From Lineus longissimus (taxonomy: Eukaryota > Nemertea > Pilidiophora > Heteronemertea > Lineidae), in NCBI RefSeq assembly GCF_910592395.1, contig NC_088313.1, positions 1,242,501 through 1,306,500 of the forward strand: a stretch of DNA of 64,000 nucleotides. Reading direction: 5' to 3'. Each line of letters begins with the position of its first letter. The first letter of the stretch is position 1. The translations under genes and the position numbers were made by a program. This document shows positions 5,001-63,940 of the stretch, one piece after another. Under the pieces are notes generated by a model, which was given only the letters and a program-made list of their open reading frames with translations, did no database searches and was not told the DNA's origin.

Positions 5001-8000
5001 GCCGAGTCTATCTTTCTTGGGGCCAACAACAAGTATGTTATCCGCGATATCTGAATCTCCATACTGGTTTCACTGTGGAAGTTAGAATGAATGAACTTCT
5101 CAGACTGCGCGTGCGTTTCATGCAGCCCTCTCCCATTTATATCATGGTCGTTGTTTCTCCTGCAGCTTGACACTTAGTGGGGGAGGTGTGGAAGGAGGGG
5201 TCCGTGGGGGACACTTAGTGGGGGTCAGGGTGAGTAGTGTCTTGGTCATCATCATCATCATCATCATCATCTAGTCCACACCTCGGTTATTCATAAAGGG
5301 AGACTACAGTCGGGCGCTACGTGGAGCAGTTAAAGTTTCATAAAGTCAACAATAGGTGTCTCAGCTAGTGCTGTCTCTCCTGGTAGTAGGAATGTTTTAA
5401 GACAAAATAGAACCAGTTCCCTGATGGAGCATATCACCTTAAGACTCCACCCCCTACTTCCTTTCTCCTCTCCTTTTTATCTGCTACAGAAGAGCAAGTC
5501 TATTGTCACCTGTAACAGGAATGGCTCAGTCATGACAGTCTTGCCCGCTCAAATGCAACAAAGCTTGAAATATTGCATATTGCTGAATGAAAAATACTTG
5601 TCTTTACCAGTGTAGTAGATGAGCCGTTATTTGGTGATCTCTGCTCACCTATTATTTCCTCTTGCAGACCCGGACTTCATCAACACGTGTGAAGAGAAAC
5701 TAAAGGTGCATTACGTGAGCTGCTATGCGAAGGAAGCGCCACTAGACTGGTTCCACGTCCCCAACAAACCAACACATCGTATCTTCACCAACGTCAACCT
5801 GATGGAACGAAACGGCAGCCGGCATAATCAAGTATTGACCTTTGACCTTTTGAACTTTAAGCCTGGTTTGAGGATACTAATTGAGGGTCGTGCTGGTATG
5901 GGCAAGAGTACTTTAATCCATCGCATTGCATATGATTATGGTCTAGGTATTTTGGCGACCTTGCAGCGGTTTAAGCTGGTCTTTGTTCTCGATGTTTTGA
6001 AATGGTCACGTGCGCAAGAGTTGCATGATGTTATTTTGGAACAAGCTGTACAAGCAGATGCGTGGGGATTAGAAGCAGATGATCTCTTTGACTGGATGCA
6101 GAACAATCCAGAAGATATCATCTTCTTCATTGATGGATTGGATGAGCATCCCGGTTTCCCCGCCAGTCACAGTCTCCTCAGCCTCGCACAGGGACAACTC
6201 TACCCAAACAGTACTGTTGTCTTCACAACCCAACCAAACCGTGTTTTTGAAATCACCGATTGTTGCCAAAAGTTCTACGTCATGCAGAAATTCACAGAAA
6301 AACAGATGCAAGGTTTCATGGAGAGTTTTGTTGAGGGAAAAGATAGCGAGCTTGATGCGCTGAAACTTGATCTCCTCTGTGAGAGACATGTGGCCGACTT
6401 CTACAAGGTCCCGCTCCATCTTGCTCTGCTTTGTACACTCTTTCAGAATGGTGAGATCATTGAGAATGACCCAATCCCGTTCACCCTGACAGAGTTGTTT
6501 GACAGAGTCTTCGTGTACACGCTGCGTCAGCTGGTAGCAGATCGGCACGTTGATACTCAAAAAGAGCTCGAGTTGTCCATGTTTGAAGATATGGCATTTG
6601 TGTTGACCCGATTGGCACTGTCATGTTTGCAAGAAGATATTGTCTGTTTGTCCAAAAGTCAACTTGCATCAGGGCATGAAATCGACGACGACCTTCTTGA
6701 TGCATTCATCCAATATGGCCTCCTGGAAAAAGTCATTTGTCGTGATGCATACTTCTTCCCGTACAAACTCTTTCAAGAATTCCTTGCTGCAAAATTCATT
6801 GCGATTGAGTATTTCAGCGCAGCCAACTCCGGCCAGATTGGTGTTGTCCAGGACATGAATCACGTGCGTGAGCTGTTTGAGATGTGCTGGTCATGTTACA
6901 TCGATGGTTACAAGTATGAAGATCTGTGTGTCTTCACGTCTGGTCTCCTCAGCCGGGACTATAATCAGTTTGTTGATGCATTATGTAAACAGTACAGCCA
7001 GGCGCCTGATGACTCGGCACGGGAAATGTGTCTGAACGTGGCGTGTGCTTGCATCAGTGAGAACGCCTCCAATCGTGGTTTCATCAGCTTGGTTGTTGAC
7101 AGTCTTTCACCAAAGGGTGATTTGTGCCTTGACATCTCCACAGATGATGCCAGTGGGGCGCACCTGTTGGGCATCGCTCACATGCTGGCCGCGGACAAAC
7201 TGCCCAAACTGAGTCTGGTCAACTACAACGTGAGTGATGTGGAAGCCTTGCATAGCATCGCAGATGCCCTTGCCGACACTGAGAGGCTGCGATCATTGGA
7301 GATTGACTTCACTAACTTAGATCCAACCTATAACGGCATGCCCAAGATGAAAGGTGGCGAAGAAGATTTCTCGCTATTGAAACGGTTTGTTAAGGCGCTC
7401 TCTGTGAATTCATCAATTCGCGACTTGGCATTCCGACTCAATGTTGATATGATGAGTTTACAAGGTGTTGAAGTCGTATCAGCGTTGTTCCTCAATGTGC
7501 TCGGTGATCTCAAATCACTCGGGGTGCATGTCTATTTTGATAAGACGTCATCGTATTTCCAAGATTGCCCAATCATCAAGGAGAGCATCACATCCTACGA
7601 AAACCTGAACCTGCTGATTTCTCGGTTCACCGTCTTCCTCCAGAACAACTCCATATTGGAGAAACTGGAACTAAATGGCTGCTTCCTGCATCGCGATGCC
7701 CTCCCTGAACTCAAACACAACATCATCAACCATAAGTATCTCCGCGCCATCTCACTCGCCGGTCAGAATGAGGGCGCTCCGATACACCGTGAAGGTACAA
7801 ATGCACTTGCCGAGATTCTGTTACAGAAGAACTTTGATGAAGTCTCGCTCGACCTGAACAGCTTCCTCACGCACCAACCCGACAAGTACAGCCTCAAAGA
7901 CAGCCGCGTCAAATTCGACACAATGCAGTTTGAAAACGAGCTGATCATTGCGAAGCTTTTGAAGGCGATGCAGGGCAATGGCAAGTTGAAGCAGGTGAAG

Positions 8001-8456
8001 CTGGTGTGTCGCCAGATCGATTGTGATCTACTTGACCACATGGCTGACTTTGTCGAGGACTGCCTGTCATTGACCTCGCTTGAGATTTCCTGCGAGGAAA
8101 TGGATGACTTGTTTATGTTGTTCCTTGGTTGCGGAATCTTATGTTCTTGGATGTTAGAAAGCCTGACGCTCCGGGGCAAGTTTGATTCAGGGGGTGCCAC
8201 CTTTCTCTTGGTTCAGTCGTGTGTTATGAGCCTTTCATTGAAATCAGTCACACTCTCCGGGTCATTTTCTCAGGACTGCATTGATTGGTTGGCTGTTTCC
8301 TTGCCTAATTTGAATATTCAGTGCACTCACCCAATGACCTTGACCCTTCAAGGTCGGGTAGATGAAGGTGAGACCGATTCTGTCCTTGAATCGATTGAAC
8401 AGCTGAAAGAGTGTGTCCTCCCTCTTGATCTGCTCTTAGAGACCGAGTTCAATTGA
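2019..8456 (+). CDS. NACHT domain/LRR-like receptor (NLR-like), three exons
   Basis: This is a predicted NLR-type signalling ATPase of about 1508 residues. The exons are 2019-3279, 4196-4672 and 5668-8456. Both introns are GT-AG and both junctions are phase 1, so the frame closes exactly. The ATG at 2019 was chosen because an in-frame TGA lies two codons upstream and an acceptor-like AG ends at 1998. Residues 1-580 are strongly acidic, with runs of D and E, and show no recognisable death, CARD, TIR or pyrin domain. The NACHT module follows: Walker A GRAGMGKST near residue 653, Walker B FFIDGLDEH near 731, a TTQPNR sensor-like segment, and FPYKLFQEFLAAKF of the winged-helix region. The last 400 or so residues contain irregular leucine-rich repeats. 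NACHT proteins typically oligomerise on ligand sensing, in the cytoplasm. No neighbouring gene suggests a ligand. The NACHT call is firm; an immune role is inferred from the family. Confidence 0.88.
5246..5271. repeat. ATC trinucleotide microsatellite
   Basis: A run of about eight ATC units lies in the second intron of the NACHT gene, just after a short direct repeat of ACACTTAGTGGGGG. No function is apparent. Confidence 0.85.
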
Positions 8457-11687: not shown

Positions 11688-32930
<21,243 letters not shown>

Positions 32931-38911: not shown

Positions 38912-41900
38912 ATGTCGAAATTCATTTTGTGGTTGCTTTGCTTGCTAATGTTGGAGAGCGCTTTCTCAGGTAAATCATGCCATTCGGAACCTCATGGTCT
39001 TATACTTCATAGGTTTTATATCCGATTTATGACAATATTGAAGTTAGAAATGGCTGCTACTGACCTTATCTACCATAAACTGGACATTTTAAGATCTCGG
39101 TGCTCTGATAGGCGATACCCGAGGGTAAAGATGTCTAAGAGTATACCCCCTATACCTGCCTCAGGCGGCACATTTTGTGCCCCTCGAAAAAGCAATTGCC
39201 AACTTTGGAAAAACAATTTCCACTAAAGAATATGGGATGACTAGGCGGGGACAGTCGTCCGCCTGCCCTGTCCGCCGTCCGCCCCTCCCCTGTCCCCGAC
39301 GCACTTCCGCCTCAAGCGCTTCGGATGAACCCATTCTGGACAACATTCATATCATTTGCTTATTTCATGATTTCTTGACCTCTCGGGTTCAATTTTCATA
39401 CCATTAATGTCGTCTTTATGACTGTTCGCAGGAAACCATTCTTCTGATTTACAGATTTGCCGCGTGGATTTGGTTTAGTCTTTTCTCACAACTCTCCGGA
39501 TTACAACCACCTTATTTATGAACTGGTACACCTTATTTATGAACAGCTGTCCCCGATAACTTCTTCATTCCCACTTGCAGCTCACCCTACAAATCTCTTT
39601 TTTCCCTAGCTGCAACCATCATCGATACTAATCAATTCTTAATTTTATTCATCTATTCATCAGGATAAACAATTCATGATACATTGGGTGACAGGTTTCT
39701 TGTCTAACAGTGGCAGTGGAGAATTCGCGGCCGTATTGTGCGAAATTGTTAATATCGCACGTAATCAATCAACGCGAGTCTCCGACGACGGACGTTGATT
39801 AATCTTTAGAATGTCACCCTCCAGTCCGGGGAATAAAATGTCTAACCCTTTGAGTGTGTTGTATATACGATATAAATAACGCCATGAGACCTTCGGGCCG
39901 GGAAGAAATTACAATAAGTTTGGATATTTTGGCTACTGATACTTAAGACCATCATCGGCGTGCCAGTGGTATGAAGGAGTGGCTAAATTTACATTCAAAA
40001 ACAGTCTCGCACGTTTAGTTAAAGAGCTGTTGTATGCTTGTAAAATTACTTATAGCTACTCATTGTGTTTTAGGTCCAGGCTCTAACTTCGGTCGACAGT
40101 TCCTTATATCCCTGAACGCCGACTTTGTTCCAAGTGGCGTCAAAATAGTAATCTACGCCAAAAATGATGTAACGTCAGCAGCGACGGTCAAAGTTTCGTG
40201 GCCGAATAATCATGGCTCTCTATCGCGAACATTCACACTTCAAGTTGGGGAAAAGACTATATTGGGAGTAAAAGATATTTCGATGTGCGGTGCTACGGAA
40301 ATGTGTGACAAAGGTAAAATCTGTTCCTTAGCTTAGTTTAAAGCAAGTCACTGTAAAATCGGACAGGAGCCGTAACGGCTATTTATCACTACAAATCCCA
40401 CAGAATTATCAATTACATGCAGCAGCATAATCGTTTTGAGAGTAAAGCCTTCCAGACTTACTTACTCCGCATCAATGGTCTATTTACAGGTACTCTCGTG
40501 GAGTCCACACAGGACGTAGCGGTCGTTGTAGCCGCCACGCCGAGCCACTACTACACGCCAGTCCTGCCCGCCGATGCCCTCGGACTCCGCCACATAGTCC
40601 TGACCAATATGAAGTACCCGAAGTCCAAAACGCTTTACTCTGTCATGGCACTTTATGATTGTACCAAAGTGAAGATTCATGGGGAGAGTTCCGTTGACAT
40701 TTCTACAGAAAAACAAATTAATGCTTATGAGATATTCCAGGTGAGAGAATTAGAGAGATTACGTTTGGCAAGATATACCCAGTGATTTAGATTTTATAAT
40801 TTTCTTCTTCCCCTTCTTCCTCTCCTCCTCCCCTCGTTCCTCTCCTAGACGTTCCCATATTTCGAAAGTAAGAATTTCATTGTGCCGAGAGCAGCATCAT
40901 TAGAGAGTTCAAGAGCTTGTTTGGGGAGTTTCGGCAGGTGCGGATTTTTACGCCCGTATGACGTATACGTATTGCCGCGTCACAAATTACGTTATGTACG
41001 TCATACGTACATGTAAATCGACAGAGATATCGATACGGCCCATTCGTCATACGAGAGCGATTGTTTTCGCGAAATTCGCACATGGTAGCACTGTTTTTGT
41101 TCCTTCAGCGAGTTTTTCTTCCAAATAAAAAATTATTACCCAACCCCTTCTCCATACACGTTCTCTTCTTCAAAACACCGCTTGTTGTGCAAATTAGCAT
41201 GTTATTTTAGACCTTTAGCATTGCTTTTATTGACATTTAGCAATGCTTTTATCAATGGCGTTGCTCAGCTTTCAGACAATGCGGCGTATGCGGTCAGGGT
41301 ACGGAGGGACCACCGCTTGAAAATCAGAATGCGAATTGTTCTCATTGGCCAAGTCCAAGAAACATTGGTTGGGGTTTCGGCACTCCACCACGTCATTCAC
41401 AGATAGTGTATACACTATGTTCTATCAGCGTCTGGTTCTATGCTATATTTCAGGTGATTAAGGCATTGGACCTGACTGGGACGCAGATTCTGGCAGATAA
41501 GCCCGTAGCTGTCTTCGCAGGGGACTCAGATTCCACCTGGCAGATTCTACCCGTCGAACAGTGGGGCCAGACCTACGTCTTTTACTCGACACAGAAAAAC
41601 GTTGGAAAGAGATACTTCAAAGTTTTGTGTAAGTGGTCACAACGCGTAATCCTAAAACGATGTTACTGGTCATTCGATGAATTGCAAGCTTTTTATCAGT
41701 CTTGGTGACTGTAGCGAACGCTCCTCAGAAGAAGGTGGGAGTAGGCTGGTGGTTACTCTAAGGAATAAGACGCTGATAATATCAGCGTTGACAATATCAG
41801 CGTTGACTTTCTCTTGGCAGGCTAAAGCTAAACCATCTGTCAATCATTTAAAGAAAGATGACTAGCAAATTTGCTTGCAGGATCAAACACGGACTAAACA

Positions 41901-54646: not shown

Positions 54647-57600
54647 CTACTCCAATGCTTTCCGAGCTGCCTGCACGAGATCCGCAGGGTCCTTCCCTTC
54701 CAGTGCTTCCCCTTGTCCCTTCAACCAGCTGTATGCCTTGTCGTACAGCATCTCCCAATCATCCTTGCTCTCGCTCCAATTCATATCAAGCCAAGCCAGA
54801 ACCAACGCAGTGGCCCACACTGACAAATCCTGAAAAGTGGAATTTGAAAATAAACTACCATAAGATTGGCCTATGAAAGTGGGGTAAAATTGTAACTATA
54901 CATTATCCAGCTTGAATTATACATGGTTACTCTTTTATTTCATATGATTCACTATACAAAAAGATGTTAAAAGATAGCCTAGTGGGCTGTACTTGTTATA
55001 GCTTTGCCATCCCGGGTTTTGGGTGGAGGGGCTATTTCACCCCCAGGGCCAATTTCACCCCAGTTTACAGTACTGAAGATGCTTTGTAAGATTTTACATA
55101 ATCCTCTTGGGTCTGTAAGATTTCCTATATTTCCCTTTACGTGCAGCAACTCTGCAGGTTTTACTCAAAAAAATCCAAAATGGTTTAAAAGCATCATTGA
55201 AGTCCGAGTAGGCAGTTGGTCATTCATGACAAAATTTCGTTGCGAAGAAAAATGCTCTTATCATAATGATAAATGAGATGATAACACCACATGATTATAA
55301 AGTTTCCACAAAAAAAAGCTGCACCTTACTGACTTTCATCGGAGAACATCCAAACCTTTCGATAAGTCACAGGAAGTTTAGATGTCAGACTCAGTCCATG
55401 TCACATTCGGACTGTGAGCAAGGCCTCAGAGCAGACACAGGTAATCTAGTCAACCGAAACGAGATGAACTTACTGAATTCCAGGCGCATGAGATCAGCAC
55501 TACCATGATGCAAGCAATATGCATTTATTCTAGGTCAAGTTTGATTGCAATAGACTGATTTGCCGCCACAGTTTTCCGAGGTATGTCATCAGATTTGATT
55601 TGGTTAAATTACTCACGTTCAAAGGAGATGACGATTTCAAATCGATGGCGTCTTTGCCAAGCAAGTTAACAACAGCCTCACTCAGCTCCCAGTGTCCATC
55701 AAAGGTTTGCTGGTCTACCATTCCCATTAACGTATCAGGGTCAACTTTAAATGAAAAGAATGACGATGGTGATTTCCGCAGTATGAAAAAAACACAACAT
55801 AATTAACACAAAGACTTCCTCTGGCAGATGACCAGAAAATCATGGAAGAAATTAACAATGTATCCAGAACAGAGCATGAAGGATTCTGGGTCTTTATCAA
55901 AGTCATGGAAGGGTAAGCCAACCAGTAGTTGGCGCTCCAGAGCCACAAACGATGGGGAAGTAACGTTTACGAATGGACTAAAGATTTAAAGACTTGTCGA
56001 ACATCCTTTCTGCATCGCTTCTTGAAAACCGATTTACAGGAATAAATGGTATTTCATATTTGAAAACACTTACCCTTTTTATATAGAGGGCTGTCCTTTG
56101 CCAACACGTTTCGAGATTCTGGGGGACCCGCCTTCACTGTAAGAGAGTCTGAAAAGCCAAGAATACAGAGCATGTGCCATTTGACCCATTGTACATGTAC
56201 TGTACCCCCAGTTATATAGCATGGCTTAACCCGCTGCCCATGGAGGTCTTCCTTTGTGGCCGAATGGTTGGCGTGTTGTCTCCAGGTTATAAGTAAAACC
56301 ACCGCGGGCTGTGGTCATAACTTGGATTGGCGACCAGCACATGGTCGCCAATTTACTCTCCATCATTGTGGACTGTGAGAATGATATTTCTCGAGCTTTA
56401 GGATTGGTGTGAAGTTACTACAAAGGACTTAAAAGGTAAATTATGATGTCTTTGTCACCCTATACTGAACTTCCAGTGGTACTGCCTCTGACCATACGTG
56501 GCGTCTGGAAGCTGAGCAATGTCAATATTACACTGTGGGTCAAGCTGTTGGCAACCAGGTCCCATTAATTTTGATAATAGGCTTATGACAATTCGGGCCA
56601 GATGTGGTATGAGGTAATGATCAATAAAAAAACAAACTTCAAAGAAATCCAACCAGTAGTTGGCGCTCCAGAGCCACAAACGATGGGGAAATAACGTTTA
56701 CGAATGGACTAAAGAACTATATAATTGTCAAGCATCGCTTCTTGAAAACCGATTTACAGGAGTAAATGGTATTCCATATTTGATAACACTTACCATCTGC
56801 TACAAAGCTGCAATCCATTTCTAGAAAAAGAAATTTAAACATCACTATTGATTTGAGCGGATAAAATATCAAACATTTTCAACACCGTCACCTGTACTTG
56901 GCAGCAAAAAGTCTGAAGAGCCAAGAATACAGACTTGACTTTATAAAGTATGCACCATTTGACGCATCACTCCTGTAGTATGGTCACCAATTTACTCTCT
57001 GTCATTGTGGACCGTGGGAATAGGTAGCATAAAATATGATATTTCTCTAGCTTCAGGATTGGTATGAAGTAACTAGAAAAACTTAGTAAAATTCTGATGT
57101 CTTTGGCAACCAGGTCCCATTAATTTTGATAATAGGCTTTGGACAATGCAGGCCAGATGTGGTATGAGGTAATGAACAATAAAAAAACAAACTTCAAAGA
57201 AATCCAACCAGTAGTTGGCGCTCCAGAGCCACAAACGATGGGGAAATAACGTTTACGAATGGACTAAAGAACTATACAATTGTCAAGCATCACTTCTTGA
57301 AAACCGATTTACAGGAGTAAATGGTATTCCATATTTGATAACACTTGCCTGCGCTAGCTGATGGACAGTAGGCTAGAAAAAGAAATTCAAACATCACTAT
57401 TGATTTGAGCGGATAGAATATCAAACATTTTCAACACCGTCACCTGTACTTGGCAGCAAAAAGTCTGAAGAGCCAAGAATACAGACTTGACTTTATAAAG
57501 TATGCACCATTTGACGCATCACTCCTGTAGTATGGTCACCAATTTACTCTCCGTCATTGTGAACCGTGGGAAGAGGTGGCATAAACTATGATATTTCTCT

Positions 57601-60600
57601 AGCTTTAGGATTGGTATGAAGTAACTAGAAAAACTTAGTAAAATTCTGATGTCTTTGGCACCCAGGTTCCATTAATTTTGATAATAGGCCTAAATGCAGG
57701 CCAGATGTGGTATGAGTTACCATGGTTACTGCAGGGCTGGGCCACCAAGTACTCATTCATTCTTATAAGGCCGGGTTTATTTAGAGTTCAGGAACATGTT
57801 GTCCGAACTGTTGATTCCGAACTTATAGCACTGCTAATGATTCTCAGTTAGATTTTGGCCTTTCATTCCACAGTGGCTGTGAGCTTACCACAATATGGGG
57901 ATAGGGGACGACTGGCACACTTACTTCGGAGAGGCTCTGGCCTAACCTTTCGCGGAGATATCGCTGGGGATGGTTCATTCGGTGATAAACCCATAGCTAT
58001 GGGCTTGCGGATTCCTGAAACAAAAGGAATTATTTACCAAATTTCATAGTTTTTCAACAAGAGTTAATAAAAATACAAAGCTTATACATCCCACCTTATT
58101 GTCTCTTCCCTCGGGGCAATCCAAGCAAGTTTTTGGCCAAGGCAATTCTATTCTTAAATTCATCTTTGCACTCTCTGCAGCTGAGTGTCATGAATGCAGT
58201 TACCTTCCACTACTACTAGGTCTATGCCATGCTCAGTCTCTGATAAATTTCACAGATTAAATAACAAATACAAGCCTGATGTCTTTAATTAATGGTTCAT
58301 CGACCATAAACTTCAAATGCTAGATAAAACCATACGTGGTGTCTGGAAGCTGAGCAATGTCAATATTACACTGTGGGTCAAGATGTTGGCAACCAGGTCC
58401 ATTAATTTTGATAATAGGCTTTGGACAATGCAGACCAGATGTGGTATGAGGTAATGGTCAATAAAAAAACTAACTTCAAAGAAATCCAACCAGTAGTTTG
58501 CGCTCCAGAGCCACAAACGATGGGGAAATAACGTTTACGAATGGAATAAAGAACTATATAATTGTCGAGCATCGCTTCTTGAAAACCGATTTGCAGGATT
58601 AAATGGTATTCCATATTTGATAACACTTACCCTCTGCTTTAAAGCTGCAACCCCTTCCTAGAAAAAGAAATTTAAACATCACTATTGATTTGAACGGATA
58701 AAATATCAAACATTTTCAACACCGTCACCTGTACTTGGCAGCAAAAAGTCTGAAGAGCCAAGAATACAGACTTGACTTTATAAAGTATGCACCATTTGAC
58801 GCATCACTCCTGTAGTATGGTCACCAAGTACTCATTCATTCTTATAAGGCCGGGTTTATATAGAGTTCACGAACATGTTGTCCGAACTGTTGATTCCGAA
58901 CTTATAGCACTGCTAATGATTTTCAGTTTGATTTTGGCCTTTCATTCCACAGTGGCTGTGAGCTTACCATAATATGAGGACATCGGAAGTGATGTACGAC
59001 TGGCACACTTACTTTGGGGAGGCATTGGCATAGACTTTGACGGAGATATCGCTGGGGATGGTTTATTCCGTGATAAACTCATAGCTCTGCGCATGGGGAT
59101 TCCTGAAACAAGAGGAATTATTTACCAAATTTTCATAGTTTTTCAACAAGACTTAATAAAAATACAAAGCTTATACATCCCACCTTATTGTCTCTTTCCT
59201 CGGGGCAATCCAAGCAAGTTTTTGGCTAAGGCAATTCTATTCTTAAATTCATCTTTGCACTCTCTGCAGCTGAGTGTCATGAATGCAGTTACCTTCCACT
59301 ACTACTAGGTCTATGCCATGCTCAGTCTCTGATAAAATTTCACAAATTAAATAACAAATACAAGCCGGATGTCTTTAATTAATGGTTCATCGACCATGAA
59401 CTACAAATGCTAGATAAAACCATACGTGGTGTCTGGAAGCTGAGCAATGTCAATATTACACTGTGGGTCAAGATGTTGGCAACCAGGTCCCATTAATTTT
59501 GATAATAGGCTTTTGACAATGCAGGCCAGATGTGGTATGAGGTAATGATCATTAAAAAAACAAACTTCAAAGAAATCCAACCAGTAGTTGGCGCTCCAGA
59601 GCCACAAACGATGGGGAAATTACGTTTACGAATGAACTAAAGAACTATATAATTGTCAAGCATCGCTTCTTGAAAACCGATTTGCAGGAGTAAATGGTAT
59701 ATCATATTTGATAACACTTACCCACGACATCTGATTGAAAGGAGTCTAGAAAAAGAAATTCAAACATCACTATTGATTTGAACGGATAAAATATCAAACA
59801 TTTTCAACACCGTCACCTGTACTTGGCAGCAAAAAGTCTGAAGAGCCAAGAATACAGACTTGACTTTATAAAGTATGCACCATTTGACGCATCACTCCTG
59901 TAGTATGGTCACCAATTTACTCTCCATCATTGTGGACTGTGAGAATGATATTTCTCTAGCTTTAGGATTGGTGTGAAGTTACTACAAAGGACTTAAAAAG
60001 TAAATTATGATGTCTTTGTCACCCTATACTGAACTTCCAGTGGTACTGCCTCTGACCATACGTGGCGTCTGGAAGCTGAGCAATGTCAATATTACACTGT
60101 GGGTCAAGATGTTGGCAACCAGGTCCCATTAATTTTGATAATAGGCTTTGGACAATGCAGGCCAGATGTGGTATGAGGTAATGGTCAATAAAAAAACTAA
60201 CTTCAAAGAAATCCAACCAGTAGTTGGCGCTCCAGAGCCACAAACGATGGGGAAATAACGTTTACGAATGGACTAAAGAACTATATAATTGTCAAGCATC
60301 GCTTCTTGAAAACCGATTTGCAGAAGTAAATGGTATTCCATATTTGATAACACTTACCCTCGCTATATGATGGACAGCAGGCTAGAAAAAGAAATTCAAA
60401 CATCACTATTGATTTGAGCGGATAGAATATCAAACATTTTCAACACCGTCACCTGTACTTGGCAGCAAAAAGTCTGAAGAGCCAAGAATACAGACTTGAC
60501 TTTATAAAGTATGCACCATTTGACGCATCACTCCTGTAGTATGGTCGCCAATTTACTCTCCGTCATTGTGGACCGTGGGAATGGGTAGCATAAAATATGA

Positions 60601-63600
60601 TATTTCTCTAGCTTCAGGATTGGTATGAAGTAACTAGAAAAACTTAGTAAAATTCTGATGTCTTTGGCAACCAGGTCCGATTAATTTTGATAATAGGCTT
60701 TTGACAATGCAGGCCAGATGTGGTATGAGGTAATGATCAATAAAAAAACAAACTTCAAAGAAATCCAACCAGTAGTTGGCGCTCCAGAGCCGCAAACGAT
60801 GGGGAAATAACGTTTACGAATGGACTAAAGAACTATATAATTTGTCAAGCATCGCTTCTTGAAAACCGATTTACAGGAGTAAATGGTATATCATATTTGA
60901 TAACACTTACCCACGCTATATGATTCATCGTCTAGAAAAAGAAATTCAAACATCACTATTGATTTGAACGGATAAAATATCAAACATTTTCAACACCGTC
61001 ACCTGTACTTGGCAGCAAAAAGTCTGAAGAGCCAAGAATACAGACTTGACTTTATAAAGTATGCACCATTTGACGCATCACTCCTGTAGTATGGTCACCA
61101 ATTTACTCTCCGTCATTGTGGACCGTGGGAATAGGTAGTATAAAATATGATATTTCTCTAGCTTCAGGATTGGTATGAAGTAACTAGAAAAACGTAGTAA
61201 AATTCTGATGTCTTTGGCACCCAGGTTCCATTAATTTTGATAATAGGCCTAAATGCAGGCCAGATGTGGTATGAGTTACCATGGTTACTGCAGGGCTGGG
61301 CCACCATGTACTCATTCATTCTTATAAGGCCGGGTTTATTTAGAGTTCACGAACATGTTGTCCGAACTGTTGATTCCGAACTTATAGCACTGCTAATGAT
61401 TCTCAGTTAGATTTTGGCCTTTCATTCCACAGTGGCTGTGAGCTTACCACAATATGGGGATAGGGGACGACTGGCACACTTACTTCGGAGAGGCTCTGGC
61501 CTAAACTCTTGCGGAGATATCGCTGGGGATGGTTCATTCGGTGATAAACCCTTAGCTTTGGGCTTGCGGATTCCTGAAACAAGAGAAATTATTTACCAAA
61601 TTTTCATAGTTTTTCAACAAGACTTAATAAAAATACAAAGCTAATACATCCCACCTCATTGTCTCTTTCCTCGGGGCAATCCAAGCAAGTTTTTGGCCAA
61701 GGCAATTCTATTCTTAAATTCATCTTTGCACTCTCTGCAGCTGAGTGTCATGAATGCAGTTACCTTCCACTACTACTAGGTCTATGCCATGCTCAGTCTC
61801 TGATAAAATTTCACAAATTAAATAACAAATACAAGCCGGATGTCTTTAATTAATGGTTCATCGACCATGAACTACAAATGCTAGATAAAACCATACGTGG
61901 TGTCTGGAAGCTGAGCAATGTCAATATTACACTGTGGGTCAAGATGTTGGCAACCAGGTCCCATTAATTTTGATAATAGGCTTTTGACAATGCAGGCCAG
62001 ATGTGGTATGAGGTAATGATCAATAAAAAAGCAAACTTCAAAGAAATCCAACCAGTAGTTGGCGCTCCAGAGCCGCAAACGATGGGGAAATAACGTTTAC
62101 GAATGGACTAAAGAACTATATAATTGTCGAGCATCGCTTCTTGAAAACCGATTTACAGGAGTAAATGGTATTCCATATTTGATAACACTTACCTGCGCTA
62201 GCCGATGAATGGTAGACTAGAAAAAGAAATTAAAACATCACTATTGATTTGAACGGATAAAATATCAAACATTTTCAACACCGTCACCTGTACTTGGCAG
62301 CAAAAAGTCTGAAGAGCCAAGAATACAGACTTGACTTTATAAAGTATGCACCATTTGACGCATCACTCCTGTAGTATGGTCGCCAATTTACTCTCCATTG
62401 TGGACCGTGGGAAGAGGTAGCATAAAATATGATATTTCTCTAGCTTTAGGATTGGTATGAAGTAACTAGAAAAACTTAGTAAAATCCTGATGTCTTTGGC
62501 ATCCAGATCCCATTAATTTTGATATTAGGCCTAAATGCAGGCCAGATGTGGAATGAGTTACCATGGTTACTGCAGGGCTGGGCCACCAAGTACTCATTCA
62601 TTCTTATGAGGCCGGGTTTATTTAGAGTTCACGAACATGTTGTCCGAACTGTTGATTCAGAACTTATAGCACTGCTAATGATTTTCAGTTAGATTTTGGC
62701 CTTTCATTCCACAGTGGCTGTGAGCTTACCACGCCCTGGCCTAATTTTTTGCGGAGATATCGCTGGGGATGGTTCATTCGGTGATAAACCCTTAGCTTTG
62801 GGCTTGCGGATTCCTGAAACAAGAGAAATTATTTACCAAATTTTCATAGTTTTTCAACAAGACTTAATAAAAATACAAAGCTTATACATCCCACCTCATT
62901 GTCTCTTCCCTCGGGGCAATCCAAGCAAGTTTTTGGCCAAGGCAATTCTATTCTTAAATTCATCTTTGCACTCTCTGCAGCTGAGTGTCATGAATGCAGT
63001 TACCTTCCACTTCTACTAGGTCTATGCCATGCTCAGTCTCTGATAAAATTTCACAAATTAAATAACAAATACAAGCCGGATGTCTGAATTAATGGCTCAT
63101 CGACCATACACTTCAAATCGTTAGCCTCATAGCATAATTGCCTAAGTCATATTTTGGCCAAAATGTGAAAATTTTATGTCTATGTCACTTTTCTGTGTTA
63201 TTCAAGCACTGTTTACTTATTTAATGGTTTTAAAAATGTTGAGACATCTGTTATATGTTTTCGTTAAAGTTCGAATAAAAATTTCCTAAGCGTTGTCTAA
63301 AAAAATGGTTTTCTTTAATTTTTCTCAAAACCTTCAAAATTAATATGAGTTAGGCAATTATGCTATGAGGCTAACGAAATGCTAGATAAACCCTGAAGTA
63401 AGTTGAAGCAGCTCTACATATTAATGCAAAGTGCCTACACTTGGATTGACTGTAAATGTACAAAGATTGGGATGAATAGCTTCGGTGGTTACAAAAACAT
63501 TTCGAATTTTACACTCAACTTTGCCCTCTGTGACCTTGAAAAGTAGGACAAGGTGAAAACCTGTATGATAGATTATGTTCCCTCTCAAAGGGTACCTGCC

Positions 63601-63940
63601 ATTAGAATTTCAGCAATCACTAAATTTTTGTGTTTTCACATTTAAAGCTCCCAAGTGGCCAAGCTGTAAGTCAGAACATGGAGGAAATGGAACTAACCTT
63701 ACCCATCTTCTGTTCTTACCAACCACTAATCCCTGAATAGAGTGACACCGCTGTTATAACTTTGGCTGGGCACAGTCATTTCTTACCTGAGAAGGCCTTA
63801 GTAACACTTCTTTTAAATGCTGACATTTTCTTTCCAACTCTCGACCCTCTAGATTCCATTGCCAATCCGCCTCCCTTCAAAACTGGTCCCGAACTACACA
63901 AACTATATGCCATTAGACCATCTTCACCCAAGCAATCGGA
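54647..63940 (-). CDS. VWA5A-like protein, 3' part, with a microexon array
   Basis: This is the minus-strand C-terminal part of a von Willebrand A domain-containing 5A-like protein; the 5' part lies beyond the window. In transcript order the exons are 63940-63787, then class B and class A microexons (listed separately) from 62813 to 56794, then 56148-56074 (or 56136-56074), 55744-55617 and 54829-54647, ending in TAG. All junctions close in frame. The last two exons carry the family's C-terminal region: DGHWELSEAVVNLLGKDAI, then WATALVLAWLDMNWSESKDD and WEMLYDKAYSWLKGQ, as seen in VWA5A and PARP4. Exon 63940-63787 reads SDCLGEDGLMAYSL to KRSVTKAFSG and ends in phase 1. The VIT and VWA domains expected upstream are outside the window. 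VWA5A function is poorly known; relatives associate with vault particles. Family assignment rests on the last 100 residues. Confidence 0.78.
56794..56820 (-). other. Class A microexon A1 (27 nt)
   Basis: The acceptor is TTTCTTTTTCTAG and the donor GTAAGT. It is phase 1-1. It codes MDCSFVAD between split codons. It is the last class A exon before the exon 56148-56074. Confidence 0.7.
57349..57372 (-). other. Class A microexon A2 (24 nt), GC donor
   Basis: The acceptor is TTTCTTTTTCTAG. The donor is GCAAGT where every other class A exon has GTAAGT, making a GC-AG intron with otherwise perfect consensus. It is phase 1-1. It codes YCPSASA between split codons. Confidence 0.66.
57925..58014 (-). 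other. Class B exon B1 (90 nt)
   Basis: The acceptor is CTTTTGTTTCAG and the donor GTAAGT. It is phase 1-1. It encodes IRKPIAMGLSPNEPSPAISP then RKVRPEPLR. It is close to B3, with several amino-acid-changing differences. Confidence 0.62.
58631..58657 (-). other. Class A microexon A3 (27 nt)
   Basis: The acceptor is TTTCTTTTTCTAG and the donor GTAAGT. It is phase 1-1. It codes RGCSFKAE between split codons and is related to A1 (MDCSFVAD). Confidence 0.7.
59013..59102 (-). other. Class B exon B2 (90 nt)
   Basis: The acceptor is CTCTTGTTTCAG and the donor GTAAGT. It is phase 1-1. It encodes IPMRRAMSLSRNKPSPAISP then SKSMPMPPQ. It is the most divergent class B exon: many of its changes replace amino acids, yet no stop or frameshift is present. 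Confidence 0.62.
59722..59745 (-). other. Class A microexon A4 (24 nt)
   Basis: The acceptor is TTTCTTTTTCTAG and the donor GTAAGT. It is phase 1-1. It codes SFQSDVV between split codons and is the most divergent of the class, although its flanking introns match the other units. Confidence 0.7.
60358..60381 (-). other. Class A microexon A5 (24 nt)
   Basis: The splice sites match those of the other class A exons. It is phase 1-1. It codes CCPSYSE between split codons and is related to A2, with about five base differences in 24. Confidence 0.7.
60911..60931 (-). other. Class A microexon A6 (21 nt)
   Basis: The acceptor is TTTCTTTTTCTAG and the donor GTAAGT. It is phase 1-1. It codes DESYSV between split codons. 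It is the shortest of the class, one codon below the usual 24 nt. Confidence 0.7.
61484..61573 (-). other. Class B exon B3 (90 nt)
   Basis: The acceptor is CTCTTGTTTCAG and the donor GTAAGT. It is phase 1-1. It encodes IRKPKAKGLSPNEPSPAISP then QEFRPEPLR, a Ser/Pro-rich basic linker. An internal AG (ATCCCCAG) could give a 39-nt version in the same frame. Confidence 0.62.
62193..62216 (-). other. Class A microexon A7 (24 nt)
   Basis: The acceptor is TTTCTTTTTCTAG and the donor GTAAGT. It is phase 1-1. It codes YHSSASA between split codons and resembles A2 (YCPSASA), with changes concentrated in its first half. Confidence 0.7.
62730..62813 (-). other. Class B exon B4 (84 nt), shifted donor
   Basis: The acceptor is CTCTTGTTTCAG and the donor is GTAAGC. 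It is phase 1-1 and 84 nt. It encodes IRKPKAKGLSPNEPSPAISP then QKIRPGR. A deletion relative to B1 and B3 removed their usual donor, and a GTAAGC that is intronic in those copies now closes the exon, still in frame. Confidence 0.6.
63119..63376. mobile_element. 258-bp MITE with an empty site visible in the window
   Basis: Inverted ends of about 27 bp (CGTTAGCCTCATAGCATAAT and complement) bound a 258-bp AT-rich insert. The flanks read TTCAAAT then element then AAATGCTAG. The equivalent place in other repeat units (for example near 58313) reads TTCAAATGCTAG with no insert, giving a 4-bp AAAT duplication. The insertion therefore postdates duplication of the unit. Confidence 0.88.
63377..63786. 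other. Intron of the VWA5A-like gene, unique sequence
   Basis: The tail of the last array unit fades out by about 63389. After that the intron continues as apparently single-copy sequence up to the exon ending at 63787. Nothing else was seen. Confidence 0.4.

Follow-up and report, generated by a model that had tools for sequence, protein, structure and literature searches.

In the nemertean Lineus longissimus, a VWA5A-like gene contains at its 3' end a tandem array of eleven small phase-1 exons, which probably form a chain of cassettes that selection has diversified and that encodes a variable tether in the protein. The gene end lies on the minus strand of the window, the 64,000-nucleotide (nt) stretch that was analyzed (assembly GCF_910592395.1, NC_088313.1:1,242,501-1,306,500, forward strand), and all feature coordinates refer to this window. 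In the direction of transcription, the order is E0, B1, A1, B2, A2, A3, A4, B3, A5, B4, A6, A7, E1, E2, E3, where A and B denote two classes of array exon and E the constant exons (Table 1). The array itself is confirmed. As an earlier note on this DNA had described, there are seven class A exons (21-27 nt) and four class B exons (84-90 nt), and all 11 are in phase 1-1, are multiples of three in length and have no stop codon in the phase-1 frame, with E0 ending in phase 1 as the note had expected of the flanking exons. Stops are present in the phase-2 frame of 5/7 class A and 4/4 class B exons, and in the phase-0 frame of 1/7 and 2/4, respectively. Exon lengths within a class differ only by multiples of three. 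The consensus splice sites claimed in the note were found with one exception, since all 11 exons have an AG acceptor behind a pyrimidine-rich stretch and ten have a GT donor, but the donor of A6 is GC. Three of the four B exons (B2, B3 and B4) carry a second in-frame donor, while B1 lacks the proximal one; the two acceptors of E1 are 12 nt apart and both in frame, and the ten introns between array exons measure 310-619 nt. The second B donors, the GC donor of A6, the paired E1 acceptors and, described below, the confinement of divergence to exons and the variation of the linker in other animals are additions to what the note had reported.

When the C-terminal exons were used as a protein query, the single match at E<=1 among 820 candidates was P0001, the NCBI model "VWA5A-like isoform X2 [Lineus longissimus]" of 944 amino acids. 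Its cluster (90%) holds four member sequences from one contig, and the isoform comparison presented here covers P0001 alone. The precomputed Pfam accessions of P0001 include PF08487, PF13757, PF13768 and PF00092, which we take to be VIT and vWA families, and its core matches the fold of ITIH1 (6FPY, E 2.6e-30). By accessions and fold match together, VIT and vWA are united in one core, as in VWA5A/BCSC-1-like proteins, and a conserved C-terminal helical domain follows after a loop, as it does in those proteins. No hydrophobic leader was seen by eye at the start of P0001, no signal-peptide predictor having been applied, and the 175-residue isoform with the array skipped had no significant Pfam match (best E 0.14).

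To relate the array to this model, 13,824 splice chains were enumerated, in which every array exon could be present or absent, and either donor of a B exon that has two and either E1 acceptor could be used. One chain alone reproduces the last 346 residues of P0001, namely B1-A1-B2short-A2-A3-A4-B3short-A5-B4short-A7-E1(56148), from which A6 is left out. The VWA5A-like identity suggested in the earlier note is borne out by the protein match and by an exact exon chain. The array exons are coding in this predicted public model and very probably coding in the gene; RNA-seq is normally among the evidence from which NCBI builds such models. Because 10/11 exons are joined in P0001, the exons are chained rather than mutually exclusive. 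Free combinatorial use of the cassettes (2^11 combinations), which the note had envisaged, is not shown, as the model holds ten exons together and skips only A6. The same chain would suit a simpler account, in which nearly all exons are always included, skipping is minor noise, and the variety is evolutionary rather than a product of regulated splicing. Ten exons in one chain and introns of ordinary size are consistent with such a constitutive repeat linker, but P0001 skips A6 and takes the outer E1 acceptor, two in-frame donors are retained in three B exons, and axolotl models skip cassettes at the equivalent site. We give this account somewhat less than an even chance.

The divergence of the array changes abruptly between exon and intron. 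When the seven class A units are compared in pairs, the exons differ by 0.38 on average and each flank by 0.04. The pairs A2/A4 and A3/A6 have 0/165 differences upstream of the exon, and within it they differ at 7/21 and 5/24 positions. None of the 358 intron windows of 24 columns reaches the class A exon mean, the highest window being 0.087. With an alignment-free choice of exons, the four of equal length (24 nt), the mean is 0.34 vs. no more than 0.104 in any 24-column window in the flanks of these four, and for the seven equal-length A pairs Fisher p ranges from 1.2e-10 to 0.0016. Whole-length comparison of eight of the ten inter-array introns (513-619 nt), in seven pairs, gave identities of 96.6-97.9%, and of the nine gaps in the intron alignments, seven are 1 nt and two are 3 nt (pairwise counts, not separate events). 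In class B, the B3 exon is ∼20% different from the other copies, vs. 2-3% in the 140 nt downstream. Judged by these alignments, divergence is about ten times as high in the class A exons and B3 as in their adjoining introns, and is mostly due to nonsynonymous change.

Nonsynonymous (N) and synonymous (S) changes were counted in phase-1 codons, with a G assumed before every exon and with equal-length class A pairs only, which leaves out A2. B2 and B3 differ at 17 of 67.7 N sites and at 0 of 22.3 S sites, and their downstream introns at 3/140 positions; B3/B4 have 16 N and 0 S changes, and B2/B4 have 5 N and 0 S. B1 shows one S change against each other B copy, with 3, 15 and 5 N changes. In class A, the N and S counts are 6 and 0 for A5/A7, 8 and 0 for A3/A4, 4 and 1 for both A1/A6 and A3/A6, 8 and 1 for A4/A6, 8 and 2 for A1/A3, and 10 and 2 for A1/A4. 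When disjoint pairs were chosen in nine ways and summed, the proportion of N changes, without correction, was 3.1-6.3 times that of S changes (Fisher p 0.0004-0.0077). Since near-identical introns are combined with mostly nonsynonymous exon change, these comparisons indicate diversifying selection on the exons, the introns being recent or homogenized, and positive selection on amino acids is the plainest reading of the counts. A possible shared serine in the class A peptides was set aside, as exons of 21, 24 and 27 nt can be aligned in more than one way.

The counts also bear on the possibility that the exons are old and have diverged at an ordinary pace under purifying selection, with no acceleration, while gene conversion overwrites the introns. 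For several copies, the unit most similar in the upstream flank is not the one most similar in the downstream flank, a pattern that exchange or conversion would produce. Furthermore, over ∼160 nt the intron that follows E1 shares 84-86% identity with the introns after class A exons, and shorter pieces upstream of E1 also match class A unit sequence; from this similarity, the class A units and the surroundings of E1 appear to share ancestry. Both observations are compatible with old exons, as are the S changes seen in class A (2/5.3 sites in A1/A3), for which this explanation could hold. However, old divergence would load synonymous sites too, and in B2/B3 these sites are intron-like while the nonsynonymous sites are not. 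On balance, we consider old exons within homogenized introns unlikely, though worth keeping in mind.

Targeted hypermutation or templated replacement of exons, in place of selection, would account for divergence borders as sharp as those at the splice sites, but hypermutation would hit synonymous sites too, and those of the B exons have hardly changed (0-1 S changes in six pairs), so that we judge it very improbable. Nemerteans are not known to have an enzyme system for this, although no search aimed at one was made here. Equally improbable is a duplicated intronic repeat whose splice-like sites are never used: any duplication would copy symmetric phase and good sites along, but the restriction of divergence to exons argues against such intronic decoys, and lengths that stay multiples of three and ten exons in a public protein model speak against them as well. 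Least probable of all is a Dscam-like array with one mutually exclusive exon per transcript, which would agree with tandem homologous exons in one gene and with a recurring 14-nt complementary pair at the A2 and A4 donor sides, but is opposed by the ten exons in a single model (one predicted isoform). That pairing is short and AT-rich. The donor sides of A2 and A4 (60898 and 59709; 2/7 class A donors) are complementary over the 14 nt to an AT-rich element with copies at 62435, 61153, 60603 and 57042, and in a control over a 1333-nt stretch, 11/200 random Markov sequences reached as many pairs.

Two further features of the array introns were observed. The sequence CAAGTACAG/GTGACG at 62287 and its equivalents are kept in 7/7 class A upstream introns and, as internal AG|GT sites, could serve in recursive splicing. 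A scan for inverted repeats returned ten inverted pairs, the strongest of which belongs to an insert resembling a miniature inverted-repeat transposable element (MITE) at 63118-63377, in the intron before B1. Its 36-nt inverted ends are 97% complementary and 188 nt apart; by eye, ATTT is present on both flanks and the B4 unit has an empty site.

Table 1. Exons of the array and the constant exons around it, in order of transcription (window coordinates).
Exon	Description	Position	Strand	Evidence or use
E0	constant exon upstream of array, 154 nt, ends in phase 1	63787..63940	-	open reading frame, splice sites; P0001 residues 599-649
B1	class B, 84 nt, distal donor only	62730..62813	-	used in P0001
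A1	class A, 24 nt	62193..62216	-	used in P0001
B2	class B; short 61573-61484 (90 nt), long to 61448 (126 nt)	61448..61573	-	short form in P0001
A2	class A, 21 nt	60911..60931	-	used in P0001
A3	class A, 24 nt	60358..60381	-	used in P0001
A4	class A, 24 nt	59722..59745	-	used in P0001
B3	diverged class B copy; short 59102-59013 (90 nt), long to 58968 (135 nt)	58968..59102	-	short form in P0001
A5	class A, 27 nt	58631..58657	-	used in P0001
B4	class B; short 58014-57925 (90 nt), long to 57889 (126 nt)	57889..58014	-	short form in P0001
A6	class A, 24 nt, GC donor	57349..57372	-	skipped in P0001
A7	class A, 27 nt	56794..56820	-	used in P0001
E1	constant linker exon; acceptors 56148 (75 nt, in P0001) and 56136 (63 nt)	56074..56148	-	
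E2	constant exon, start of C-terminal domain	55617..55744	-	P0001
E3	last exon with stop codon, C-terminal helical domain	54647..54829	-	P0001

In the protein, the array corresponds to residues 650-816 of P0001 (167/944 residues), a stretch with 15.6% Ser and 16.8% Pro, vs. 8.5% and 3.2% in residues 1-598. The AlphaFold model, calculated from 40 aligned sequences, has a folded core, a predicted local distance difference test score (pLDDT) below 50 over residues 587-840, within which the array residues lie entirely, and a C-terminal helical domain at 844-943 with block mean pLDDT of 82-96. W860, T891, W909 and K915 of this domain are invariant in the 40 sequences. The array is thus predicted to encode a disordered tether between the VIT-vWA core and the C-terminal helical domain, and the variable linker that had been proposed ahead of a conserved C-terminal domain is supported by the P0001 chain and by the model. 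The same arrangement, with VIT and vWA followed by a disordered loop and then a C-terminal domain, is described for VWA5A/BCSC-1 and Dictyostelium Vwa1; in Vwa1 the loop is long, the vWA and C-terminal domains make contact, as they also do in a model of human VWA5A, and self-inhibition has been proposed (PMC10539598). Since the array lies in the stretch between the vWA core and the C-terminal domain, it would write the tether of this proposed intramolecular clasp, and may tune it.

We favor a model of a diversified cassette chain, in which repeated duplication, unequal exchange or gene conversion may keep the introns alike while selection would drive the array exons apart. The exons would be mostly joined in one chain, and in-frame options (skipping of the A6 type, two B donors, two E1 acceptors) could vary the length and peptide motifs of the tether without damage to the frame, since all of them are in frame. 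Such a tether might set the docking of the C-terminal domain on the vWA domain, as in the self-inhibition proposed for Dictyostelium Vwa1, and might present short motifs to changing partners. Several points weigh against this model. Exon use rests on the predicted P0001 model rather than on RNA reads, and with one Lineus isoform compared, regulated exon choice stays unproven. The introns A3-A4 and B3-A5 are outside the whole-length comparison; B1, B2 and B4 are mutually close (4-8% difference); and the 480 nt before B1 differ by 22% from the other copies, because their first part, ∼200 nt that are unrelated, is other sequence, including the MITE-like insert. The N and S counts are small (2-4 S changes) and leave out A2, an A precedes the exon behind a short B exon where a G was assumed, and selection is read from copies inside one gene of one nemertean. 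Where the sequence is variable, poor alignment also lowers pLDDT, and autoinhibition in the family is a proposal from structure prediction and domain overexpression (PMC10539598). The published L. longissimus assembly was built from PacBio long reads with hifiasm and Hi-C (PMC8593623), and if the window derives from it, a collapse artifact is unlikely. The same publication also lists an assembly of the alternate haplotype (GCA_910592375.1).

Variation at the equivalent position was also found in other animals. A homology search yielded 1061 proteins, and pairs were analyzed among the 120 matches listed. In 18 pairs, at least the first 450 residues are identical, and nine of these pairs (five from Branchiostoma, three from axolotl and one from Xenopus tropicalis, with sequences shared between pairs) differ solely in the linker; the remaining nine differ elsewhere too, and some look like paralogs. 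A query with the axolotl linker matched nine proteins, each of them the representative of an axolotl cluster, with isoform numbers up to X31; they have the first 614 and last 146 residues in common, and one of them stands for 27 sequences. By eye, cassettes are skipped or kept in these linkers, including two GAATQYK... cassettes that also occur in a shortened form, apparently through choice of an internal donor. The limits of the linker could be set in 109/126 proteins, and an internal repeat was detected in 20/109 linkers, vs. 0/126 in 250 core residues. Repeats were found in nine axolotl and four X. tropicalis linkers, and in one each from X. laevis, Dendropsophus, Oculina, Actinia, Actinostola, Lineus and one further protein. 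Some of the repeat-bearing linkers have low sequence complexity, and the Actinostola repeat (P0004) is probably an artifact of a doubled protein, so that the case for repeated cassette evolution is strongest in axolotl and Xenopus. With 278 residues, the linker of Lineus is exceeded by just two of the 109, whose median is 137. In axolotl, amphioxus and frogs, VWA5A-like models thus resemble the Lineus gene in that isoforms vary in the equivalent linker, but their cassettes, seen here in proteins alone, look unrelated by eye to those of Lineus. It is tempting, though rather doubtful, to regard the VWA5A linker as a repeatedly evolved diversity system, in which cassettes would multiply under diversifying selection in nemertean, axolotl and frogs, and splicing would equip every individual with a set of intracellular VWA5A variants, perhaps to meet rapidly changing partners such as microbes.

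Several known systems share parts of this organization. The micro-exon genes (MEGs) of schistosomes, and above all VAL-6, in which a MEG-like stretch is part of an ordinary domain gene, have very small symmetric exons, through which short stretches can be varied by splicing (PMC4350168), and 11/11 array exons are likewise small and symmetric. However, most of the coding region of a MEG is in such exons (PMC4350168), whereas the Lineus array contributes a minority of the residues, and MEGs are described with a constant signal peptide for secretion (PMC10526429), while the Lineus host is a VIT-vWA protein with near-identical introns. Dscam arrays also consist of tandem homologous exons whose variety is thought to be kept by selection, but these are mutually exclusive and 130-160 bp long, and that study detected no gene conversion and, at low power, no positive selection among paralogous exons (PMC3236188), whereas in Lineus ten smaller exons are chained and N exceeds S. 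The array thus works like a MEG-type cassette stretch without being a MEG, and on the evidence of one isoform is not Dscam-like. Aphid bicycle genes, with many small internal exons of one phase under strong positive selection, are similar in these respects; they differ in being phase 2, in encoding salivary-gland effectors and in having this structure throughout (PMC9168663), while the Lineus exons are phase 1 and confined to an array inside a conserved gene. Within the family, the portion of the Dictyostelium Vwa1/VWA5A account available to us mentions no microexon array (PMC10539598). The cassette exon of human VWA5A that Matrin3 and PTB are described to regulate is exon 2 (PMC4365034), far from the linker to judge by its number. 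No description of an exon array in VWA5A was recognized in the open-license PMC literature, among the matches listed.

No further copy of the array turned up in the window (blastn with 56001-63800 as query and 1-54600 as subject, no match at E<=1e-3), and no Rfam family reached its gathering score anywhere in it. Other features of the window include a single 945-amino-acid open frame with a NACHT domain at 5619-8456 (Pfam E 1.7e-18), an NLR-like gene; a kinesin motor exon at 12289-12606 (Pfam E 2.8e-17) and, beyond it, a 998-amino-acid coiled-coil-like open frame without Pfam match at 26542-29538; and an IgGFc-binding domain exon at 40357-40785 (Pfam E 2.5e-06). Among several minisatellites is a 2.1-kb array of ∼49 copies of a 42-bp unit at 23960-26042. 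At 30500-32656 there are four tandem copies, 96-98% identical and with open frames, of a ∼570-580-bp unit, three of which encode RGRPKKKR, presumably an AT-hook-like motif.

What sets the Lineus array apart is an apparently rapid and mostly nonsynonymous change that is confined to small exons between introns that are nearly identical, and that falls in the tether of a conserved VIT-vWA protein. Introns are far more alike here than the coding exons they enclose, so that the usual rule is inverted, and because the inversion ends at the splice sites, the locus offers a clean natural test of selection against homogenization at the level of single exons. VWA5A has a poorly understood tumor-suppressor role in humans (PMC10539598), and its tether appears to be a spot where several animal lineages add spliced cassettes.

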